Below are positions 1 through 36,621 of a stretch of 39,350 nucleotides of DNA, in pieces. Under the pieces are notes generated by a model. It searched no databases, was not told the DNA's origin, and worked only from the letters and a program-made list of their open reading frames with translations. Positions within the stretch are counted from its first letter, which is position 1, and each line of letters begins with the position of its first letter. Made by a program: the position numbers and the translations under genes. This stretch comes from Limisphaerales bacterium (lineage in GTDB: Bacteria; Verrucomicrobiota; Verrucomicrobiia; Limisphaerales; AAA164-E04). The DNA lies in NCBI GenBank assembly GCA_024761205.1, contig JAMASS010000042.1, positions 1-39,350 of the forward strand, read 5' to 3'.

Positions 1-47
1 CGGACGGAGCTAAACAGTGGATAATAAACCAATCCGGCCAGAATCAC

Positions 48-298
48 TTAAAACATGTCTTTAACCAAGGCGAGTTCTCCCGCTTCGCCAGCCACGGCAG
101 AATTTAGGTCGTCAAGTGGGTAATTCCCCTTGTTTGTGTGTAGCGTCGGGTGCAAAACGGGAGTTCGGCGGGTTGGGTTTGAGTGGCGTTGATGCTCTCC
201 GGGTTGCCGAAACCGATCCGATGCACATTGTTTCCGTGAAAATCGAGGATCTTGCGGCTCTGGGAATCCGTGAGATAGCTCCCGGTGCACCTACTCAA
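48..298 (-). pseudogene. Unassigned coding remnant at window edge
   Basis: Two overlapping minus-strand reading frames cover this stretch. The one starting near 298 contains LTDSQSRKILDFHGNNVHRIGF, which resembles the last helix of amidohydrolase-2 type TIM barrels (a pattern like LS-x-E-x-x-x-I-L-x-x-N-A-x-R-L-F-G). That resemblance is weak and I do not assign a function. Bases 300-490 show no convincing gene on either strand. The remnant lies downstream of the phnW/GDPD pair on the same strand and could be a decayed third gene of that unit. Confidence 0.22.
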
Positions 299-491
299 GG
301 ATGTTGAGACAGGGTATTGATAAGGACTGGTGTAAGAAGTGACCTGGGCGTCTTAGTCCAAAAGCACTTGGGTGGCGGAATCAATATGGGAGCGCGCCCG
401 CTCCTGACGGGCAGATGACATGATTGAGGTCGCCCCTCCGTTTTTAACGATTCCTAGATGGTCTGCATTCCTCGGTGACGAAAGGGACGGC

Positions 492-1298
492 TTACTCGGC
501 CAGAAAATCCGCCAGCTCCTGTAGCTTGTCCGTATTGATGAGGTCGACCCCAGAGGCGAGGGCCAATTCCCAATAGGCGGACGTATCTGGATTCGCCCAG
601 AATCGAATCATGCAGCCCCGCTGATGGGCTTGAGCAACCAGACTGGTGAGTTTTTCGACTTCTTCTGGCGAGATAGGGCCGCTGCCGCGCCATTTGAAAT
701 GAGTCTTCCAATTGTCACTGATTAGAGGATACAGATGAGCCGAGAGGTCGTTGCGAGCCAGGTCGGGAAGTCGGCCGTCCAGGCCGACGAGACGATGCGA
801 TTCTTGGGCGACTGTCTCAATCGGTCGATTCCCAGATAGAATCACCGTCACTGGCCCGCGTTGAGTCTGGTTGGAAGTGAACGATGTCAAGATATCGCGG
901 TAAGCCTTTAAGACCTCGCTAATGACGCGGTAGGTTGATTCGGCCTCCGTTTTAATGTCGACCAAGAGAATGAAGGGGCGTCGGGGGCCGTGTATGGAGC
1001 CTCGATTTACCTGAACGCGTTCTCTGAGCGGATCCAAGTAGAGTTTCTGAAGCGTACGGCCGTGAACCACTTCATCGGCGTCGTGGGCGACCAGTAAATC
1101 GCCGGCAATGAGATGCACATCGGCCTCCACGCTGGCAAAGCCTTCGTCAAGCGCGTCCAGTAACGGCCTCGGATGTTTGTAGTCGTTGTGAGCGTGGCTG
1201 CGAGGTATGGATTCCTCATTCCAGCTAACACAGGCGCAAAGGAGAGTGACCGCAAGAGTGCTGCTCAGATGCGGCACTGTTTGGAAGTTTGATGGCAT
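492..1298 (-). CDS. GDPD/PI-PLC-like phosphodiesterase lipoprotein
   Basis: A 268-residue protein with an N-terminal hydrophobic stretch and a plausible lipobox L-C-A-C (Cys23), so probably a lipoprotein. The mature part begins with R-S-H-A-H-N-D-Y (about residues 33-40), followed by V-E-A-D (57-60) and a later H-D. This is the catalytic and metal-binding arrangement of the glycerophosphodiester phosphodiesterase / PI-PLC-like TIM-barrel superfamily, in particular the uncharacterised branch related to yeast AIM6. The family hydrolyses phosphodiesters such as deacylated phospholipids; the real substrate here is unknown. It starts 15 bases after the phnW stop on the same strand, so the two probably share a transcript. 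The reading frame is intact and of normal length, unlike most of this window. Family is fairly sure, substrate is not. Confidence 0.8.
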   Translation of the reverse strand: MPSNFQTVPHLSSTLAVTLLCACVSWNEESIPRSHAHNDYKHPRPLLDALDEGFASVEADVHLIAGDLLVAHDADEVVHGRTLQKLYLDPLRERVQVNRGSIHGPRRPFILLVDIKTEAESTYRVISEVLKAYRDILTSFTSNQTQRGPVTVILSGNRPIETVAQESHRLVGLDGRLPDLARNDLSAHLYPLISDNWKTHFKWRGSGPISPEEVEKLTSLVAQAHQRGCMIRFWANPDTSAYWELALASGVDLINTDKLQELADFLAE

Positions 1299-1313
1299 AT
1301 CGGTATGACGGGA

Positions 1314-2438
1314 CTAGAGCGTGATCTTTAGCTCCTGTGTGACGCGAGCGATCGCGTCGATGAGGGCCTCCATGTCGGCGGGGAAAAGCCTTCCGATGGA
1401 ACCAATGCGAAAGAGATCCCCCTGGCTGATCTTGCCCGGGTAGATGATCTTGCCCTTGTCGCTAAGCCGGCGATAGAAGGTCTGAAAGTCAAACGCCGGA
1501 GACGTCGGATAATGAAACGAGGTAATGATAAAACTCTGCAGCGCTTCGGGGAGGTAGCTTTTGAATCCCAGCTCTCGCATCCCGGTAATGAGCGTTTGGT
1601 GGTTTTCCGCGTAGCGCTGACCACGAGCTTCAATGCCTCCTTCCTCTTCGAGCTCCTTCAGAGCCTGCTCGAACGCCAACAGCGAGTGAGTGGGTGGGGA
1701 ATAGCGAAACTGGCCGTTTTTCTCAAAGCAGCGAAGTTGGGCAACTAAATCGAGGCACAGGCTTCGGGCATGGCCTTCGTTGGCGAGTAGCGCTTCCCGC
1801 CTGGCAAGGATGTATGAGAAGCCGGGCACCCCTTCGATCGCTTTATTTGCTGAGGAAACCATGAAATCAATACCAAGAGACTCAAGATCAATCGGAACCG
1901 CTCCAAAGCTACTCATTGCATCAACGAAGAACGCTCGCTCTCGCTGCTTGACCACTTTGGATAGCTCCTCCAACGGATTGAGGATACCCGTTGTGGTCTC
2001 GCAATGGATCACCGCGACGAAGCCGATGCTAGGATCCTCATCGAGAGCTTTGGCAACGGCGGTGGCGTCAGGGGCTTCATTTTCCGGAAAGCGGAGCACC
2101 GAGTGGTTGATCTTGGCGTGTTGGAGCATCTGCACCATGCGCTCTCCGTACGCGCCATTCACCAATACCAGGACCTTTCCGTTGGGGGGAACCGCGGTTG
2201 CGAATACGGACTCGACTCCGAAACTCCCGCTTCCCTGGAGGAGAATGCACTCGTATCCGGCTGCCTGTGAAACGCCACCCAGGTGCAGCAAGGTCTTTCG
2301 GATCGCCGCAACCTTGGCGTTGAATTCAAAATGCCACGACCCTGCGTCGTGGAGCATGGCTTGCTTAACGGCCAGGCTCGTCGTAAGCGGGCCTGGCGTA
2401 AAGAGGGCCTTGTCGGAAGCTCTTGACGGTATTGGCAT
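1314..2438 (-). CDS. phnW: 2-aminoethylphosphonate--pyruvate transaminase
   Basis: A PLP-dependent class-V aminotransferase that moves the amino group of 2-aminoethylphosphonate to pyruvate, giving phosphonoacetaldehyde and alanine. The N-terminus carries A-L-F-T-P-G-P-L, typical of PhnW. The glycine-rich L-L-Q-G-S-G-S-F sits near residue 70, and the PLP lysine lies in S-S-A-N-K-A-I-E-G (Lys199 with this start). The open frame reaches back to 2552, but the Met at 2438 gives the usual length of 374 residues and starts just before the conserved beginning; the 38 extra residues look non-coding. No strong Shine-Dalgarno is visible. phnX, phnA and phnY, the usual partners that finish 2-AEP breakdown, are absent nearby; its neighbour is a GDPD-type phosphodiesterase. 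The same enzyme also occurs in phosphonate biosynthetic loci, so the direction is open. Confidence 0.9.
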   Translation of the reverse strand: MPIPSRASDKALFTPGPLTTSLAVKQAMLHDAGSWHFEFNAKVAAIRKTLLHLGGVSQAAGYECILLQGSGSFGVESVFATAVPPNGKVLVLVNGAYGERMVQMLQHAKINHSVLRFPENEAPDATAVAKALDEDPSIGFVAVIHCETTTGILNPLEELSKVVKQRERAFFVDAMSSFGAVPIDLESLGIDFMVSSANKAIEGVPGFSYILARREALLANEGHARSLCLDLVAQLRCFEKNGQFRYSPPTHSLLAFEQALKELEEEGGIEARGQRYAENHQTLITGMRELGFKSYLPEALQSFIITSFHYPTSPAFDFQTFYRRLSDKGKIIYPGKISQGDLFRIGSIGRLFPADMEALIDAIARVTQELKITL

Positions 2439-2655: not shown

Positions 2656-4267
2656 ATGATTGACGGAATTGGCTCTTCCTGTCGGTTCTTGGGGCGGTTC
2701 TATTGGGATGCCCGACAACAACGCGGGCAACGGCGGGTGATCCGCCTGCCGCAGAAGAAGTTGCCTTCGACCTGCACAACCTCGTCATGGGCTCCGCGCT
2801 GCGTCTAACCGTTTTGACGGGCTTCCTTCTCAATGGCAGGATCGCAGAGATTGCCGTGGTGAAAATCAATGAGGACCACGACCGCCATCTGCGTCTCTAT
2901 GCCTTCGGCGACCGCACCTGGAGGCCAAGACTCGACGCCACACTGGATACCGAGGTGCTGTTCATTGACATGGCCAATATCGGTGGCCATGACTGGTTGC
3001 TCACCTACAAGTTCGGCCGTCTGAACTGGTTCGATCCCGAAGCAGCGGCAGAACGCCCGCTGGTGGCGGTGACGTCCAGCTTCAAGCCACCACGGAGGGG
3101 CGAGAAGTGCCCCATGTCGACATCACTCGACATGTGAGCGCTGATGATCTCGACGACTTGGTCGTGCCGAATGTTGATGGCTTCTGGGTGTTCATTCAGA
3201 TGGAGGATGGCGGATTTGCCGATCCCGTAAAGATCAGTTGCTCGACTGACATGGCTGGGATCTACGGAGCCGACGGCTATCTATCGATACGACCCTTGGG
3301 GGCAGAGCCGCATCCACAAGGTGGACCACAACAGAGATGGTCGTGGCGATCCGGTGTATTGGAACGAGGACCACTTCGAGGTTCATTATCAGAACAAGAA
3401 TGGGTTGATTGCGTCGCTGGCCAATACCTTCACTACCGACGTAGAGTTCGACTTTGACGATCTCTTTTCGCTCGCTAAGGGAGCTCAGGTCGGGAAAGTG
3501 CTGCACTCGTTAACCGACCTGAACGGCGACGGTATTGCCGATCTGGTGGTTCTCTCGCTGGAGGGCAGGCATGTGTCTAGCAAGCAGTCCGCCTTTGAGG
3601 TGCACTTTGGTAGACTGGCGCCCGACGGCGGCACCTGGTTCGCACCGGAGATTGGGGTCGTGTTCCAATCGGACGGCCATATTCAACTCGGGATGGACCG
3701 GTACGACTTCGATTGCGCCGTCCAGGTTGATTTGATGTTCACGACTATTGATATCGAGTGCCTCGAGAGCAGCTTCTGGAAGAAGATCAAGGGGTTCATG
3801 GGCGATGACATCTGGCTGGATCTTGAGTTTTATCGTAGGGAGAAGGGTTTCTACCCTGACACACCCAACGCTGCGCGCAGAGTTGCGTTGGATGGTGAAC
3901 CCAGCCACAGAGAGCCAGGATGGGTGCCCCTGGACGTCGTGCTTCGAGGGGGGACGCACGAACGCCGAAGGATACAAAAACGATGGTCGCGTGCGTTCAA
4001 CTGGACTTTGCTTATAGGGGATGTAACCGGCGATGGCCGCTCAGATCTACTCATCGGTCAGACTCCTGAGAAACTGAGCGTCATTGTCGGTGTGCCGGGG
4101 CCGAACCTGTTCGCCCCGAGGGCTCAAACGGTGGCGATCTCCATGCCTCTGCGGATGGGGAATATACCTGGATGGCGGACCTCAACCAGAATGGGAAGCA
4201 AGACGTTCTCATGCATCATCCATCTGCCATTTGGCCGCATCGGCTGACGATCTTGATCGCCCAGTGA
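2656..4267 (+). pseudogene. FG-GAP (VCBS) repeat lipoprotein, frameshifted
   Basis: Read across frames, this is one secreted FG-GAP protein of about 530 residues. A lipoprotein-like leader (R-N-W-L-F-L-S-V-L-G-A-V-L-L-G-C) precedes the frame that opens at 2703, but it is out of frame with the only nearby ATG (2656), so the start is also damaged. Calcium-binding beta-propeller motifs follow: D-H-N-R-D-G-R-G-D near 3325, D-L-N-G-D-G-I-A-D near 3520, D-V-T-G-D-G-R-S-D near 4020 and D-L-N-Q-N-G-K-Q-D near 4170. Frame changes are needed near 3100, back again near 3265, and near 4155; the last frame ends in a clean stop at 4265-4267. Such proteins are usually extracellular or periplasmic and bind ligands or carbohydrates. 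Divergent from phnW. Fresh pseudogene or assembly indels are both possible. Confidence 0.75.
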
Positions 4268-5419: not shown

Positions 5420-5700
5420 GAAATTCTCTGCGTTCGCGCTTTTGCTGACGCTCGGGGGGGGGCTGAATGTCCTTCCACCCGCCCTTGAGCGACTCCGAGA
5501 TTCGAGAATATTTCAATGGACTCTCCGAACCGCAGTCGCGACTAATTCAGGTTGGCGATCAACCCTTTCACTACATCGCTTCCGGAGAGGTGAGCAAGCC
5601 CTTGTTGGTATTTGTCCATGGTGCACCTGACGAGAGGGACGCGTTTGCTGGTTTTCTCAAGAATCCCAGACTTCGCAACAGTCAACGCCTTCGCACAGCG
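5420..5700 (+). pseudogene. Alpha/beta-hydrolase N-terminal remnant
   Basis: Frame 1 from 5467 reads D-S-E-I-R-E-Y-F-N-G-L, then Q-V-G-D-Q-P-F-H-Y-I-A-S-G and L-L-V-F-V-H-G-A-P-D. This is the N-terminal strand order and oxyanion-hole H-G-x-P motif of alpha/beta-hydrolase-fold enzymes. The nucleophile elbow and the rest of the fold are missing: the sequence passes at about 5650-5700 into the remains of a transporter. A hydrophobic run just upstream (F-S-A-F-A-L-L-L-T-L-G-G-G, about 5420-5460) could be its former signal sequence in another frame. Substrate unknown; no longer functional. Confidence 0.6.
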
Positions 5701-6385
5701 GCTCCGGCAAAAAATGAAGGGCCCCCGGTCACTGCTCCGCTTTGTCACGGACCTTCTCAGCCCCTTAGATATCCTGCGAAAGATGCCTCAGGTCCAACAT
5801 GAGAATCAGGCTGAATTCTATCGTGTCCCCTCGCACGGGGATTGTTGGCCGAGGCGGGCGTCGCGCAAGCGGTCTTCGACGAAATCACCGAAGAATGGAA
5901 CTGTGTGCCCGCTCAGGGACGGGTCGACTCTCGTCGATATCAGCGTTCTGACCGGCTTCATTTTTCGCTCCTTTCGAATGGCCGTCGTCAGTCTGTCGCC
6001 AAACCTCCTCCCCATCCTCATTTCCTTGAACGCCTTCAGCATCTTGGGTATGCCGTTCTCCGCTACAGCGGCTTTTGTCTCATCAATTGCGCTTGGAATC
6101 TGCGTGGACGACATGATTCACCTGTTCACCAAATACGCGAGCACTCGAAGATGCGGGCAGAAGACAGAGGCCGCCATTGCGGAAGCCACCGAGAATGTCG
6201 GCGCGCCGGTCATAGTCACCACTATCGTGTTCATCAATGGTTTTGGCGCGCTGAGACTAGGCCAATTTGTGCCCAATATCATGCTCGGCATTCATTATGA
6301 TCGCCATCGCCTAGGGCACCGACTTACTGCTGATGCCCGCAGTCCTAAGTCTAATCGATCGGGACACCGCCGTCCCCGAACAGAC
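5650..6385 (+). pseudogene. RND/MMPL-family exporter remnant
   Basis: The stretch from about 5940 translates to F-R-S-F-R-M-A-V-V-S-L-S-P-N-L-L-P-I-L, then I-L-G-M-P-F-S-A-T-A-A-F-V-S-S-I-A-L-G-I and V-D-D-M-I-H-L-F-T-K-Y. This is the hallmark transmembrane block, with the D-D-x-x-H motif, of hydrophobe/amphiphile RND exporters (COG1033/MMPL). Further on, G-A-P-V-I-V-T-T-I-V-F and L-G-Q-F-V-P-N-I-M-L-G match the next helices before the frame fails. Upstream, 5650-5930 may hold the last part of the periplasmic loop in a broken state. A normal member has about 750-900 residues, so most of the gene is gone. A LolA-like protein follows at 7014, a common genomic partner of such exporters. Confidence 0.7.
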
Positions 6386-6388
6386 GCT

Positions 6389-7004
6389 ATGAAAAAACTG
6401 CAGCATTCAATGCCTTCCTGAGCAAGCTCAAACGCAACAGCCGCCGCAGCTAGTTTGATCAAAACAAGAAGGTGTTTAAGGAATCACTCAAAACACCAAG
6501 CAAGGCCTTTCTCACTGAAATGAAAGCGTGACTGAATCGGCTCACCAAAAAACCGGTGAAAGGGAAAATCTTTCGCATCTACCTCGACGTCCGCTTCAGC
6601 CAAGACAAAACACCTTACAGCGCATGTCGCTTCACCATCCCATAGCAGCGAACGCAGAACGCGGCAGTCAGCCCACCTTCCATTTGTCCCGCTCAAACCC
6701 GACAAACTCATTCTCGGGTGCGGCACGCACGAGTTCTCAAAAAAGGTAGTAGGGATGTACCGAGCGGCCGTCGTGAAAAACAGCATAGGAGGCAAACTGG
6801 AAAAACCCTCTCAAAACTGCTAGGCAACGGATGTCGCCCCGCCCGGATTCGAGAAAATCCCTCAGCCGGAAAGTCCTAGCGGTCTGGCACGAGCAGCGGA
6901 TTGACGCCTCCCTTTCCAGCCCGGAATGCACCGATGCACGCGTCACGCGCTTTCGGGACCTCAAGCCCATCTACGATTGGTTGACCACCCTCGATTCACA
7001 CTGA
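6389..7004 (+). pseudogene. DUF2461 family protein, inactivated
   Basis: The reading F-N-A-F-L-S-K-L-K-R-N-S-R is followed by an amber codon at 6451-6453 exactly where the family has an invariant Trp (R-E-W-F-D). Then come F-D-Q-N-K-K-V and K-I-F-R-I-Y-L-D-V-R-F-S-Q-D-K-T-P-Y, the DUF2461 core. A second stop lies at 6529-6531. After a frame change, F-H-L-S and L-I-L-G-C-G appear, then S-K-K-V-V-G-M-Y-R, and finally R-F-R-D-L-K-P-I-Y-D-W-L ending at 7002-7004, which matches the family C-terminus. Almost the whole length of about 200 residues is still traceable, so the gene died by point changes and small indels rather than by a large deletion. The molecular function of the family is unknown. 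Confidence 0.7.
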
Positions 7005-13477: not shown

Positions 13478-13552
13478 ATGTCTCATGTCGAAATCGTTAA
13501 TGATCATTGCCAGTGTGGCAAGTCTCATGCATCATCGCTAGATAAGAACCAT

Positions 13553-14113
13553 ATGAGCTCTCCGCATGTTTCATTACAAGGCCAGCTGCTGTTGGACGGA
13601 GGCAAGCTTCGGGGATCGTTTTTTCACCGAAGCGTTGTGCTCGTGTGCCAACACAATCCGAAAGGGACTTTCGGTCTCGTGCTCAATCGGGTCATGAAGA
13701 GCAGTATTGGCGAGCTGATCCCCGAGGATCTCCCCGAAACATTCAAGGAACACCCGCTCTATTGGGGGGGACCCATCCAACCGGGCGCTTTGAGTTATCT
13801 CCATGGCAATAGCTTCCTGCCTGCCGGTAATGTGATGGATCACTTGAACGTCGGCCATTCACTTGAGGAATTAATCGAACTTGCAAACACCTTCTCGCCA
13901 TCAAAAAGGATGCGAGTCTTTGCCGGCTATGCCGGATGGAGTTCAGGCCAGTTGGATGCTGAACTAGAAGATGACTCCTGGCTAACGCACCCTGCGTCAA
14001 TGGATCTTATTTTCGAGCACGATGCCGAGACCCTGTGGCACCATATCTTAGGTCTCAAAGACTGGCAACATCGCCTCCTCTCCCAGTCACCGGAAGATCT
14101 CTCCTGGAACTAA
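13553..14113 (+). CDS. YqgE/AlgH (UPF0301) family protein
   Basis: Intact. Key family blocks are L-Q-G-Q-L-L-L-D-G-G-K-L-R-G-S-F-F near the start, G-T-F-G-L-V-L-N-R-V, W-G-G-P-I-Q, V-F-A-G-Y-A-G-W-S-S-G-Q-L-D-A-E-L, and a C-terminal W-H-H-I-L-G. The UPF0301 fold is cytoplasmic and its biochemical role is not settled; AlgH was linked to alginate regulation in Pseudomonas. From the ATG at 13553 the protein has 186 residues, the usual size. The frame is open to an earlier ATG at 13478 that would add 25 residues including H-C-Q-C-G-K-S-H, which is atypical, so I prefer 13553. It converges on the minus-strand SpoU remnant, whose stop lies only a few bases away. Confidence 0.9.
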   Translation: MSSPHVSLQGQLLLDGGKLRGSFFHRSVVLVCQHNPKGTFGLVLNRVMKSSIGELIPEDLPETFKEHPLYWGGPIQPGALSYLHGNSFLPAGNVMDHLNVGHSLEELIELANTFSPSKRMRVFAGYAGWSSGQLDAELEDDSWLTHPASMDLIFEHDAETLWHHILGLKDWQHRLLSQSPEDLSWN

Positions 14114-14960: not shown

Positions 14961-16862
14961 TCATTCGAATCGAATCCGCCCCCAATCCCCTGGCCGGCCT
15001 TGAACACCCGACCGCGCAGACCAAGCAATACGGGACTGATTAATATTTTCTCCGGGCGCGGCGTCTGCCTTGTCGCCATCGTAGACAATGACATTGAAAC
15101 CAATGGGACCCTTACGGCTCAAATCCACACCCGATTCCGTGAACGGAATCACCGCGAAAATCCGGTAACCTCCTTCAAGCGCCACAGAAGTTACTCGCGT
15201 CGTGGGTGCTGTTTCCTCAATCGGTCCTTGATTCGCATCCGCGTCTCGAGCCGCCCGGGCCCCCAAATCCTCGACAAACGGAAACACCCCCATCTTAAAA
15301 CAAGCAAAAGTATCTTCAGCACCCCCATTGGGATCGATGCATATCTCGACCGAATCACTGCGCCAATGACCTCGAACATCACCTCGTTGGATATTGGAAA
15401 CCACCGTTTCGTCCCACACACGAATATCAACCCCGATCGACTGCCCGTCGTGGCCAAGCCTGACCAACGCGCGGCTGTCCATATCATCAATGATACTCCC
15501 TTGCACCCGTTGGCTAGGTCCGATCTCCAAAGCCGGGATCTCAGTCCAATCCTGAGCCACCTGATCCACTGTCGGCATCGTGGCTACCCGCGGCACTCGA
15601 GCCACCGGAACCGCATGCAATCGTCCCGACGTCTCGACCAGCCTACCGTTAGCAATCGCTTTGACCCGAAGCTCAAGACTGCCGGCGCGCTCCGGTATCA
15701 CTCGGAAGGGCACCCTTGTGGTTCCCGGAGGGAACTCCCGTGCAATCGCCGGAGGCTCCACGGTGAACTCCCCGGAATTGCCAAGTTCAACCTGACACGA
15801 TTGCGTTTTGGGCAGGGTATTACTGACCTCAATGAGGATCTTATTAGATTCTCCGGTGACGACGGGAATATCCGGCAACAATTCAACCGCGACATGTTCA
15901 AGATCAAACGCCTCGAGCCACCGTTCATACCGAGTGATCGCCGGACGAGGAACCAATCGAGCCATGATCCGCTTGGGAGGTTCTCCGGATACAGCCGGCG
16001 ACGGCAACACCGGCGGTGTCGGACCCTCTACCGGCAAAGCATCAAAGAAACTCTTTTCCCCTCTAAACGGGACCACACTCTTGACCAAGGTGAACCACCG
16101 GGGGCGCGTCAACCAGGGTGAACCCGTCATACGCCCAAATCCCTGTGAACGATGATTCGATAAGGCTTCACCGACAATCTTGCCCAACGATTCGCCTGCC
16201 ACTTCCCCAGTGGCTTCGACCTGCACGCCAAACTCGCTCAAACTTCCGGTGCAATAAAGCTTTCGCGGCTGCCACACCGACAGACCTTCCTTGGTTATTT
16301 GACTAGCATAGCGGGTCGAATCAGCCGCTGCTTCGAAGGCCTCCGTTGCTAAAATAGCGGCGGACTGATGGTGCCCATGTTGCCCCGGGTTAGGCGTGGG
16401 GTTCATGGTCAGCATAATCTCTGGCCGCAAAGCCCGAACCAAACGGACCAAACGCTCCAACGTCGCATCCTTCCCCCAAGCTTGAAGCGTGGCATTCACA
16501 CTCTCCGTGTAGGCCCAATCCCGCTGTTCCAGGAAGTAGCAATAGCGAATCCCCAGCCGATTGAGACAATCCCTCAACTCAGCCTCACGCAGAATCCCAA
16601 GAGAAGGTCCCCAGTGAGTCCCCACCATGTTCCCTCCGCCCTCGCCCCGCGTGCAATAGACGTTGGCCACCGTCATGCCGTCGATCAACGACAACGACGC
16701 CAACGCAGCTGCCATTCCCATCTCATCATCCGGATGGGCGAGCACTGCCATGACGTCCACCTTGAGCAGCTCGGCTCCTTGTTTGGGCGACGCTCCAGAG
16801 ACCACGCCAAGGGTGCTACAAAGCATTAAAAATAGACCGACAAGTTTTCTCATTGTGTTCAT
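14961..16862 (-). CDS. PIG-L/LmbE family deacetylase with C-terminal CBM9-like domain
   Basis: An intact protein of 633 residues. With the Met at 16862 it begins M-N-T-M-R-K-L-V-G-L-F-L-M-L, a normal signal peptide; the frame is open 21 residues further, without signal features. The catalytic domain starts with V-L-A-H-P-D-D-E-M-G (His43-Glu47), the zinc and base motif of LmbE/PIG-L N-acetylglucosamine deacetylases. H-G-H-H near residue 152 supplies the third metal ligand. A beta-sandwich segment in the middle (I-L-I-E-V-S-N-T-L-P ... R-V-I-P-E-R-A-G-S-L-E-L-R-V) looks like a NEW3-type linker. The last 150 residues (W-R-S-D-S-V-E-I-C-I-D-P-N-G ... G-F-N-V-I-V-Y-D-G-D) look like a family 9 carbohydrate-binding domain. 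Probably a secreted sugar amidase. Followed by the SpoU remnant on the same transcript. Confidence 0.88.
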   Translation of the reverse strand: MNTMRKLVGLFLMLCSTLGVVSGASPKQGAELLKVDVMAVLAHPDDEMGMAAALASLSLIDGMTVANVYCTRGEGGGNMVGTHWGPSLGILREAELRDCLNRLGIRYCYFLEQRDWAYTESVNATLQAWGKDATLERLVRLVRALRPEIMLTMNPTPNPGQHGHHQSAAILATEAFEAAADSTRYASQITKEGLSVWQPRKLYCTGSLSEFGVQVEATGEVAGESLGKIVGEALSNHRSQGFGRMTGSPWLTRPRWFTLVKSVVPFRGEKSFFDALPVEGPTPPVLPSPAVSGEPPKRIMARLVPRPAITRYERWLEAFDLEHVAVELLPDIPVVTGESNKILIEVSNTLPKTQSCQVELGNSGEFTVEPPAIAREFPPGTTRVPFRVIPERAGSLELRVKAIANGRLVETSGRLHAVPVARVPRVATMPTVDQVAQDWTEIPALEIGPSQRVQGSIIDDMDSRALVRLGHDGQSIGVDIRVWDETVVSNIQRGDVRGHWRSDSVEICIDPNGGAEDTFACFKMGVFPFVEDLGARAARDADANQGPIEETAPTTRVTSVALEGGYRIFAVIPFTESGVDLSRKGPIGFNVIVYDGDKADAAPGENINQSRIAWSARSGVQGRPGDWGRIRFE

Positions 16863-16951
16863 ATACGCCAACCTGACATTCAAACCAACCCCCTTTCCGT
16901 TGGTTGGAAAGCAGCCATGACCCAAAGAACCGGCTCCACAGGGACTACACT

Positions 16952-34611: not shown

Positions 34612-35430
34612 CTATCGCGGAAATAGTCGCTTGTATTCGTTAGTCGTATCCTTCGCGGCGGATTCGGAATCCGGGATTGGGAAACACTCAGCGGAGATGA
34701 AGCGGTCGTAACCGGTTTTAATCAAGGCTTTCGCTATCGCTTCCAGATTAAGGTGTCCGCGTCCGGCAGCCTGGCGATTGGAATCCACAAAGTGGACGTG
34801 GCCGATGTAGCCTTTGCCGGATGCCATGGCGTCAGCAGGATCGGCTTCTTCGATGCCCATGTGAAAGACGTCAGCCAGTAGTTTGACGTGTTGGGTGGAC
34901 AGGGATTGGCAAAGATCGACGCCTTGGGCGATAGTGTTGCAGAGGTTCGTCTCGTAGCGATTGAGCGGTTCATAGATCAAGGGCACGCCTTCGTTGCCGG
35001 CGATCTCACCCAAATCGTTGAGGGCTGCGCGCAACCACTCGAAGGCTTGATCGCGGGATACGTTGCCACCCCAGTGTCCTTGCATGGATCCGATGATCGC
35101 AGGGACACCGAATTGGGCGCCGTAGTGGATCATATCGGTGATGAAGTCCTTGGCTTGATCTCGTTTTAAGCTGTCTGGATCGCAGAGGGTGAGTCCGTGA
35201 ATGACCATACCGGCACCGGTGCCGACGGCGGCGATCTCGATGTTGTTCGCCTCAAGCAGTGGCTTCAGTGTGTCAGCCGGCACTTTGTTTGGCGAAGGCG
35301 CGAAAAGTTCGATGGCGTCGAATCCTAGGGAGGCCGCGGTTTGGCATCCTTTCTCGATTCCATCCCAAAGGACGAAGGGACCGCCACAGGCCTGTTCAAC
35401 GAGACTTACAGTAATAGCAGTTTTGATCAT
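34612..35430 (-). CDS. Sugar phosphate isomerase/epimerase (TIM barrel)
   Basis: Intact, 272 residues, of the xylose-isomerase-like TIM-barrel family (hydroxypyruvate isomerase, tagatose 3-epimerase and relatives). Metal ligands can be placed at Glu154 (L-I-Y-E-P-L-N-R-Y-E), Asp187 (L-L-A-D-V-F-H-M), His213 (G-H-V-H-F-V-D-S-N-R) and Glu248 (I-S-A-E-C-F). E-P-L-N-R-Y-E and V-D-S-N-R are typical of ketose 3-epimerases and 2-keto-acid-sugar isomerases. Cytoplasmic; interconverts keto sugars or their acids, exact substrate unknown. It is the third gene of a minus-strand unit: aldo/keto reductase, shrunken MDR dehydrogenase, then this gene 30 bases later. No clear Shine-Dalgarno precedes the ATG. 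Survival here suggests a retained step in sugar catabolism. Confidence 0.88.
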   Translation of the reverse strand: MIKTAITVSLVEQACGGPFVLWDGIEKGCQTAASLGFDAIELFAPSPNKVPADTLKPLLEANNIEIAAVGTGAGMVIHGLTLCDPDSLKRDQAKDFITDMIHYGAQFGVPAIIGSMQGHWGGNVSRDQAFEWLRAALNDLGEIAGNEGVPLIYEPLNRYETNLCNTIAQGVDLCQSLSTQHVKLLADVFHMGIEEADPADAMASGKGYIGHVHFVDSNRQAAGRGHLNLEAIAKALIKTGYDRFISAECFPIPDSESAAKDTTNEYKRLFPR

Positions 35431-35688: not shown

Positions 35689-36621
35689 TCAGTTGTTTTC
35701 GGGGAGTCCCTCGATGTGTCCGATGTTTTTCACTGGTTCGAAGATCGCTTGGACATCTTTAAGAAGTCCCTCGTCCATTGGTGCGGCGGCCCATTTTGCC
35801 CATTTGCGGATATTGTCCGGATTCGCACTGCCGGCAATGGTAGTGGCCATGTCCGGATGAGCGATGGAGAATTGAAGCGCCAGCTGGGCGATGTCGACAC
35901 CGTGTTCGTCGCAAAGAGCAGCCGCTTTCCGGGCGGCGGCTTTGACTTCCTCGGGTTCTTTGAGCCAGGCTGGGAGCGGTGCGTTGGTTAGCAAGCGGGC
36001 GCTGAAGGGGCCGGCATTCATCGCACCGATTCCTTTTTCCTTCAGGTAGGGAACGGTTTCGTCGAGGAAGCGGGTGTTTTGCAAGGTGTATTGGTTGTAG
36101 CTCAGGACGCAGTCGACGCTGATTTGTTCAATGACAAACTTAAATATTTTCTGGGGATAACCACTGAAACCGATGTAGCGGACTTTGCCTTGGTCACGAA
36201 TCTTTTGAATTGCTGGAATCGTTTCATCGACGATTTGTTGCATGGGAACAAACTCGATGTCATGGCACAGGATGATATCGAGGTGATCGATGCCGATGCG
36301 GTGGAGGCTTACATCAATGCTCTCCACAACACGCTTGGCGGAAAAATCGAAGTGGGCGAGGTCGTAGCGACCTAATTTGGTGCAGAGTGTATATCGATCC
36401 CGGGGCACATCGCGGAGGGCGATGCCTAGCAGGACCTCGCTCATGCTGCGACCGTAGAAGGGTGAGGTATCGATGAGATCCATGCCGAGATCGAGCGCGA
36501 TGTGCACGCTTTCGAAGGCTTCGTTCAGTTTGACTTGGCGAAATTCCTGACCTAGCGATGAGGTGCCGAAGCCAACGACAGGAAGGCTGAGATCGGTATT
36601 GCCTAATTTTCGATGTTCCAT
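35689..36621 (-). CDS. Aldo/keto reductase, L-galactose/L-fucose dehydrogenase type
   Basis: Intact, 310 residues. The catalytic tetrad is present: Asp51 and Tyr56 in L-I-D-T-S-P-F-Y-G-R-S, Lys82 in L-C-T-K-L-G-R-Y-D, and His120 in I-L-C-H-D-I-E-F. The blocks F-D-F-S-A-K-R-V-V-E-S-I-D-V-S-L and C-H-D-I-E-F, with Q-I-V-D-E-T-I-P-A-I, closely follow plant-type L-galactose dehydrogenases and bacterial D-threo-aldose (L-fucose) 1-dehydrogenases. These oxidise the sugar C1 to the lactone using NAD(P). First gene of the minus-strand unit with the MDR remnant and the TIM-barrel isomerase; divergent from a broken sugar isomerase. The context supports a catabolic role on a 6-deoxy or L-sugar, but the substrate is inferred. 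No strong ribosome binding site is visible. Confidence 0.88.
   Translation of the reverse strand: MEHRKLGNTDLSLPVVGFGTSSLGQEFRQVKLNEAFESVHIALDLGMDLIDTSPFYGRSMSEVLLGIALRDVPRDRYTLCTKLGRYDLAHFDFSAKRVVESIDVSLHRIGIDHLDIILCHDIEFVPMQQIVDETIPAIQKIRDQGKVRYIGFSGYPQKIFKFVIEQISVDCVLSYNQYTLQNTRFLDETVPYLKEKGIGAMNAGPFSARLLTNAPLPAWLKEPEEVKAAARKAAALCDEHGVDIAQLALQFSIAHPDMATTIAGSANPDNIRKWAKWAAAPMDEGLLKDVQAIFEPVKNIGHIEGLPENN

Follow-up and report, generated by a model that had tools for sequence, protein, structure and literature searches.

Why should an intact gene for a 2-aminoethylphosphonate (AEP) transaminase, phnW, stand beside a gene for a GDPD-like phosphodiesterase with no phnX next to it? The pairing occurs in the window, by which we mean the whole 39,350-nucleotide stretch of a Limisphaerales bacterium contig analysed here. 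The original prediction saw in it a phnW without a normal partner, and proposed either an unrecorded route, in place of phnX, that sets AEP free from phosphonolipids, or a remnant of phosphonate biosynthesis.

phnW and the adjoining phosphodiesterase-like gene

The first gene of the pair (positions 1314 to 2438, minus strand, with ATG at 2438 and the stop at 1314) is a whole frame of 374 codons. Its product scores 467.4 bits against TIGR02326, over the NCBIfam equivalog cut-off of 400.8, which bears out the earlier claim of an intact phnW, and 490.1 bits against NF010006 (cut-off 296). The best solved relative is the AEP transaminase 1m32 (379.5 bits, residues 11 to 364), and alignment to it shows that the PLP-lysine stretch is retained (SSANKAIEGVPGF vs SSANKCIQGVPGF); we take the SSANK stretch to be the PLP-lysine site. 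Judged by family score and alignment, the gene is phnW, and it yields the single phnW-grade match in its own genome, the next best having an E value of 4.3e-17. In the phnW tree, from which the relative G006 was excluded, the window protein falls within the catabolic phnW group (99/98) and not the pepM-linked group; its sister comes from G003, a genome of the same genus (100/99).

The second gene (492 to 1298, minus strand) lies downstream at a spacing of 15 bases, and its frame of 268 codons is intact, as had been claimed. We assign its probably exported product to the GDPD/PI-PLC-like phosphodiesterases of HAHNDY type on the basis of predicted fold and invariant residues. By sequence, the earlier GDPD label is weak. 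Queried with the GDPD profile, the PDB sequences yielded only weak matches (the best GDPD entry had an E value of 0.028, and the rows above it were chance matches). Fold and site residues argue for the label. The predicted structure (mean pLDDT 91.2) gave VIA Z scores of 17.5 for 5fyp and 16.3 for both 3no3 and 2pz0, and the Foldseek matches to the model were GDPD or phospholipase D structures of the same fold. Residues H35, H37, E58, D60, H72, D114 and K116 are invariant in alignments of 20 and 36 sequences, the larger of which (A2) comprises the window protein and 35 of the 80 named loci discussed below; presumably these include the two catalytic histidines, the E-x-D metal site and the lysine of the GDPD site. 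The protein is thus like the GDPD/PI-PLC superfamily (3no3, 2pz0 and 5fyp) in its barrel fold and in its invariant histidine, acid and lysine positions; it differs in scoring 26.2 bits against Pfam GDPD_2, narrowly below the cut-off of 27, and in having no close solved relative by sequence.

The product had also been called a lipoprotein. Export is likely for members of this family, whose N termini in relatives resemble ordinary export signals when judged by eye. The lipid anchor is a putative one: LCAC at residues 20 to 23, which we take to be a lipobox-type pattern, is matched only loosely in relatives, and the n-region of the window protein is without Lys or Arg.

Gene order in relatives and the remnant of pbfA

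We searched a set of 40 genomes, the window's own included, counting as phnW-grade any match with a best E value below 1e-60. Such matches were found in 20 genomes, the phosphodiesterase in 22 and both in 15, and the two genes are adjacent in nine (the window's own, G004 to G010, and G016), so the pair is conserved, as originally proposed. In eight of the 39 relatives (G004 to G010 and G016) the ammonia-lyase gene pbfA follows phnW and the phosphodiesterase gene, and the same order is seen in the named records L141 (Pedosphaera sp. MED719) and L155. The phnW and phosphodiesterase frames of G006 are broken; decay was considered and dropped as the cause, many genes around that cluster being split in a manner that looks like sequence error.

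The wider order shows what such a cluster can contain. PbfA occurs in 64 of 196 genomes, and the stretches read around these loci extend up to about 8 kb on each side, limited by contig ends. Nearby we found phnW at 32 loci, phnY at 19, phnA at 17, phnA together with phnY at 16, and phnX at two; the phosphodiesterase gene is present at 11, each time directly beside pbfA, a gene that we call c8 at 13, and pbfA stands alone at 23. A single cluster in the order c8-phnW-GDPD-pbfA-phnA-phnY is present in G016 and G183, from which it follows that the missing partner is phnA/phnY and not a new route; phnX is found in the cluster of G034. The proposal of an unrecorded route in place of phnX is not supported by these clusters, and to speak of a phnW without its normal partner was misleading, as relatives pair phnW and the phosphodiesterase gene with pbfA and phnA/phnY. 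Because relatives keep the full cluster, the odd pairing becomes an ordinary one. The original prediction had allowed that phnX or pepM adjoining the pair in close relatives would speak against it; G016, G183 and G034 do so in spirit, but not from within the window's own family, where phnA and phnY are encoded away from the phnW cluster.

Two further genes recur in these neighbourhoods. A divergent gene, c5, with a formylglycine-generating-enzyme-like domain (PF03781), precedes phnW in six family members (L090, L091, L094, L096, L097 and L106); the window showed none at the corresponding position. The product of c8 looks secreted, belongs to the alkaline phosphatase superfamily (PF01663) and weakly resembles PhnA; at its 13 loci the gene lies just before phnW or pbfA (e.g., L098:1802-2752, L089:7416-8312, L101:7014-7898 and L279:11506-12456). 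From its sequence, c8 is a second candidate esterase of the phnW/pbfA clusters.

At the place that pbfA occupies in relatives, directly downstream of the phosphodiesterase gene and on the same strand, the window holds a remnant of the N-terminal part of pbfA (122 to 463, minus strand) which the original prediction had overlooked. It was detected by tblastn with the relatives' PbfA as queries (best E value 3.8e-25, up to 49% identity), and a three-frame reading reveals an in-frame stop and a frame change. The remnant retains its coding pattern at the aligned positions, and its loss is therefore recent. No PbfA match at an E value of 1e-60 or below was found in the own genome. Sequencing error was rejected as the cause of the damage, as there is more than one break and the end runs into another gene's tail.

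That tail, at which the remnant stops, belongs to a repeat and to the 3′ end of a restriction-endonuclease-like gene (1 to 109, plus strand), named from reading, whose 36 C-terminal residues are the same as those of a 154-residue frame of L108. Copies of window positions 1 to 131 lie at C31:28712-28842, C73:11022-11148, C4:8874-8959 and C65:444-534, with 78 to 100% identity. The endonuclease-like 3′ end thus occurs in five places in the genome, and the whole gene was seen only in C31, beside a DNA-methylase-like gene (both names by reading); PbfA matches around the four copies were at chance level (E value 0.33 or worse). The phnW pair and pepM (see below) all lie near contig edges, for which reason we checked whether their contigs, C37 and C22, might be neighbours. 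The idea gained no support: the window's opening 250 bases have their matches in C31, C73, C4 and C65, not in C22.

The loss extends beyond pbfA. The earlier statement that phnX is missing is true of the whole own genome, where the best match reaches 43.8 bits against a cut-off of 220. PhnA gave no match there at an E value of 1e-5 or below, while 16 of the 40 genomes exceed the PhnA cut-off; PhnJ, of the C-P lyase, is found in none of the 40, the own genome included; and the best PhnY-like protein of the own genome is 37% identical to a PhnY with which the relatives' counterparts beside phnA mostly share 60 to 65% identity. A search of the rest of the genome, suggested at the outset, hence failed to find phnX and phnA and did find pepM, on C22. 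By the routes tested, then, this genome's sequence shows no path leading from AEP to phosphate, and degradation would stop short of phosphate. At 95.1% completeness, the assembly may have missed phnA or phnY, which counts against any reading built on their loss. Taken together, three features that can be seen in the sequence itself (a gene order in common with relatives, a dead pbfA, and the absence of phnA and phnY) make it very probable that phnW and its neighbour are what is left of a phnW-GDPD-pbfA operon belonging to a cluster for degrading AEP and 1-hydroxy-AEP.

A possible role in AEP synthesis and the retention of phnW

On contig C22 of the same genome, pepM and ppd lie in tandem, their products scoring 376.8 bits (PepM; cut-off 319.55) and 368.7 bits (Ppd; cut-off 312.5). 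The PepM sequence EDKLFPKTNS conforms to EDKXXXXXNS, given as the PepM motif in PMC6697681, and the protein is fused to a nucleotidyltransferase domain (PF12804), the commonest PepM fusion in the same paper. In motif, fusion and adjoining Ppd, the locus is like the PepM/Ppm-Ppd-AEP transaminase biosynthesis with fused nucleotidyltransferase set out there; it differs in that phnW is not adjoining and is of the catabolic group. No phnW was found beside pepM-ppd in C22:1-20000; the sequence read reaches 20 kb to one side of the locus and 656 bases to the other. The gene after ppd is a broken sulfatase-like gene (L087:3484-5000) that shares 4 bases with the end of ppd, and it occupies the spot where other pepM loci carry phnW.

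The fused type of PepM occurs in 12 of 196 genomes of the order, the own included, and nine of the 11 other loci carry a pepM-ppd-phnW tandem; the two exceptions are G119, where the locus ends at the contig edge, and G118, which is without ppd and phnW beside pepM. Near several of the tandems we noted genes for a CDP-alcohol phosphatidyltransferase, an LPG-synthase-like membrane protein and an NTP transferase (L222:2740-5638, with similar stretches in L102, L103, L217, L219 and L220), as a phosphonolipid pathway would need. In G181 (L221:2295-9188), phnA-phnY directly follows pepM-ppd-phnW, placing the making and the breaking of AEP side by side.

In the own genome, we met no AEP transaminase of the pepM-linked lineage or within the pepM cluster, the window PhnW being of the catabolic group. 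PepM and Ppd would make phosphonoacetaldehyde, and PhnW would now serve the making of AEP; according to PMC8154272, PhnW is able to serve both directions. Because PepM and Ppd supply this genome with phosphonoacetaldehyde and PhnW is its only AEP transaminase, this appears to be the likeliest reason for PhnW's being kept, and we give retention for AEP synthesis, a role read from sequence, slightly less than an even chance. Against it stands the position of the protein in the catabolic group. The proposed biosynthesis remnant thus lives on in another form: pepM is not adjacent in the window's family, and pepM-ppd is found on the separate contig C22.

The whole PhnW and the lack of every tested C-P cleaving route would also suit nitrogen scavenging, in which PhnW transfers the amino group from AEP to pyruvate and the cell reduces or loses the resulting phosphonoacetaldehyde, with no need for C-P cleavage. 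We consider this very improbable, as we saw no candidate for disposing of phosphonoacetaldehyde and the reverse use of PhnW with PepM and Ppd accounts for the same facts.

A more serious alternative is that the cluster is simply dying, with PhnW and the phosphodiesterase unbroken so far and without a present role in phosphonate metabolism. The state of the window lends this some weight, since frames of at least 200 codons cover 0.32 of it, vs 0.67 to 0.98 of seven relatives' stretches (the value for 20 kb of C22 is 0.59), and the broken yet coding-like pbfA points to recent loss. From 2703 to 39350 long frames are sparse; whole ones include those for AlgH-like (13478-14113, plus strand), PIG-L/CBM9 (14961-16925, minus), xylose-isomerase-like barrel (34612-35430, minus) and aldo/keto reductase (35689-36621, minus) proteins, and among the fragments are FG-GAP (3321-4247, plus) and MMPL (5612-6421, plus). 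Against a mere relic, both genes keep whole frames side by side (374 and 268 codons), with invariant active-site residues. The own PhnW differs from the family at about 0.30/0.21/0.65 of codon positions 1/2/3, and relative-rate counts reveal no consistent excess on its own branch (none for most pairs with G013 or G034 as outgroup); those for the phosphodiesterase show no own-branch excess. With G016 as outgroup, own-branch changes in PhnW are somewhat higher (41 to 46 vs 24 to 35), which counts against retention under constraint. The original prediction held that survival of both genes amid decay implies selection. Both frames do look constrained, but because the loss of pbfA is recent, the survival of its two neighbours beside it is only moderate evidence for selection. 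We therefore rate a dying cluster as rather unlikely.

Our preferred explanation overall, to which we assign a probability of roughly 0.55, is that the pair is an operon relic in which PhnW has been retained for AEP synthesis and the phosphodiesterase would keep a general esterase job. The limited reading of C22, the G016-rooted PhnW counts and a pbfA decay perhaps too recent for its neighbours' survival to prove selection weigh against it. If it holds, this genome is a testable example of an organism that has abandoned breakdown and may employ one of the breakdown enzymes for synthesis.

The phosphodiesterase and comparison with known phosphonate clusters

Does the phosphodiesterase itself belong to phosphonate metabolism? 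We surveyed its neighbourhood at 80 named loci, the best 80 of at least 585 relatives. No phosphonate gene lies within 7 kb at 77 of these 80 (an aldehyde dehydrogenase at L133, 29% identical, was excluded from the PhnY count), and neighbour clustering around the same best 80 of at least 585 gave no shared partner that hints at a function. In the 40-genome set, the phosphodiesterase occurs without phnW in seven of the 22 genomes that hold it, and its gene and PbfA are on separate contigs in six (G011, G013, G023, G030, G034 and G038). The window protein is 56% identical to the unlinked copy of G021, vs 40 to 49% to its family's linked copies and 54% to G002.

The alternative is that it is a dedicated member of aminophosphonate catabolism, one that would act ahead of uptake, splitting phosphonolipids or glyceryl esters to release AEP or 1-hydroxy-AEP, and would add to the PhnWAY/PbfA system, not substitute for phnX. 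Linked copies are known from three families (f1, f7 and f36), 11 of 11 directly beside pbfA and on separate tree branches; the tree, of 26 of the 80 named loci and 23 sequences from the window and relatives, requires four changes for the pbfA-linked copies, at least two of them forced by well-supported branches, and unites them as one group in 0 of 200 bootstrap trees. The phosphodiesterase is found in 15 of 17 genomes with PbfA vs seven of 23 without (Fisher p 3.6e-4, relatedness ignored; counts compiled by hand from the phnW, GDPD and PbfA searches, with phnW again at a best E value below 1e-60). The esterase-like c8, unrelated to it, is present in the same clusters (13 of 64). The prevalence of unlinked loci, the separate contigs and the fact that one family supplies most of the linked cases all argue the other way. 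On balance, a dedicated role seems doubtful, and action on phosphonate esters is a plausible but tentative proposal.

Were the full cluster of relatives to work in this manner, the exported phosphodiesterase would cut phosphonate diesters outside the cytoplasm, the freed aminophosphonates would be taken up, PhnW and PbfA would convert AEP and (R)-1-hydroxy-AEP to phosphonoacetaldehyde, and PhnY and PhnA would complete the path to phosphate. The presence of both the phosphodiesterase and c8 suggests a release of aminophosphonates from esters before uptake. Lipids and glycans contain natural phosphonates as building blocks (PMC8316502; PMC6697681), the degradation papers cited here begin from free AEP and close derivatives, and the esterase-like genes beside phnW and pbfA are concrete candidates for the release step. 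A still bolder version, which we regard as improbable, makes the exported HAHNDY phosphodiesterase a new ancillary enzyme of aminophosphonate catabolism, which would split phosphonolipids or glyceryl esters to liberate AEP or (R)-1-hydroxy-AEP. In Pedosphaera-like Verrucomicrobiota it would have been recruited repeatedly to a place beside pbfA, and in the own genome the catabolic PhnW would then have been taken over for AEP making with PepM and Ppd.

The cluster is best set beside the PhnW-PhnY-PhnA (PhnWAY) and PhnW-PhnX clusters with PbfA, as described in PMC8154272 and PMC12366243. The relatives are like these in having phnW beside pbfA, and phnA-phnY in the same or another place. They differ in the GDPD-like gene between phnW and pbfA, and the window copy differs further in having lost pbfA, phnA and phnY. 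Among the open-licence papers searched, in the parts available, we found no description of a GDPD gene in an AEP cluster; an esterase-like gene in a PhnWAY-type cluster, its occurrence in Verrucomicrobiota and the possible take-over of PhnW for synthesis look new. PMC12366243 (2025) confines the combination of pbfA with phnY and phnA to Proteobacteria. The hosts here are Verrucomicrobiota, and the 16 of 64 PbfA loci that carry both phnA and phnY depart from that statement.
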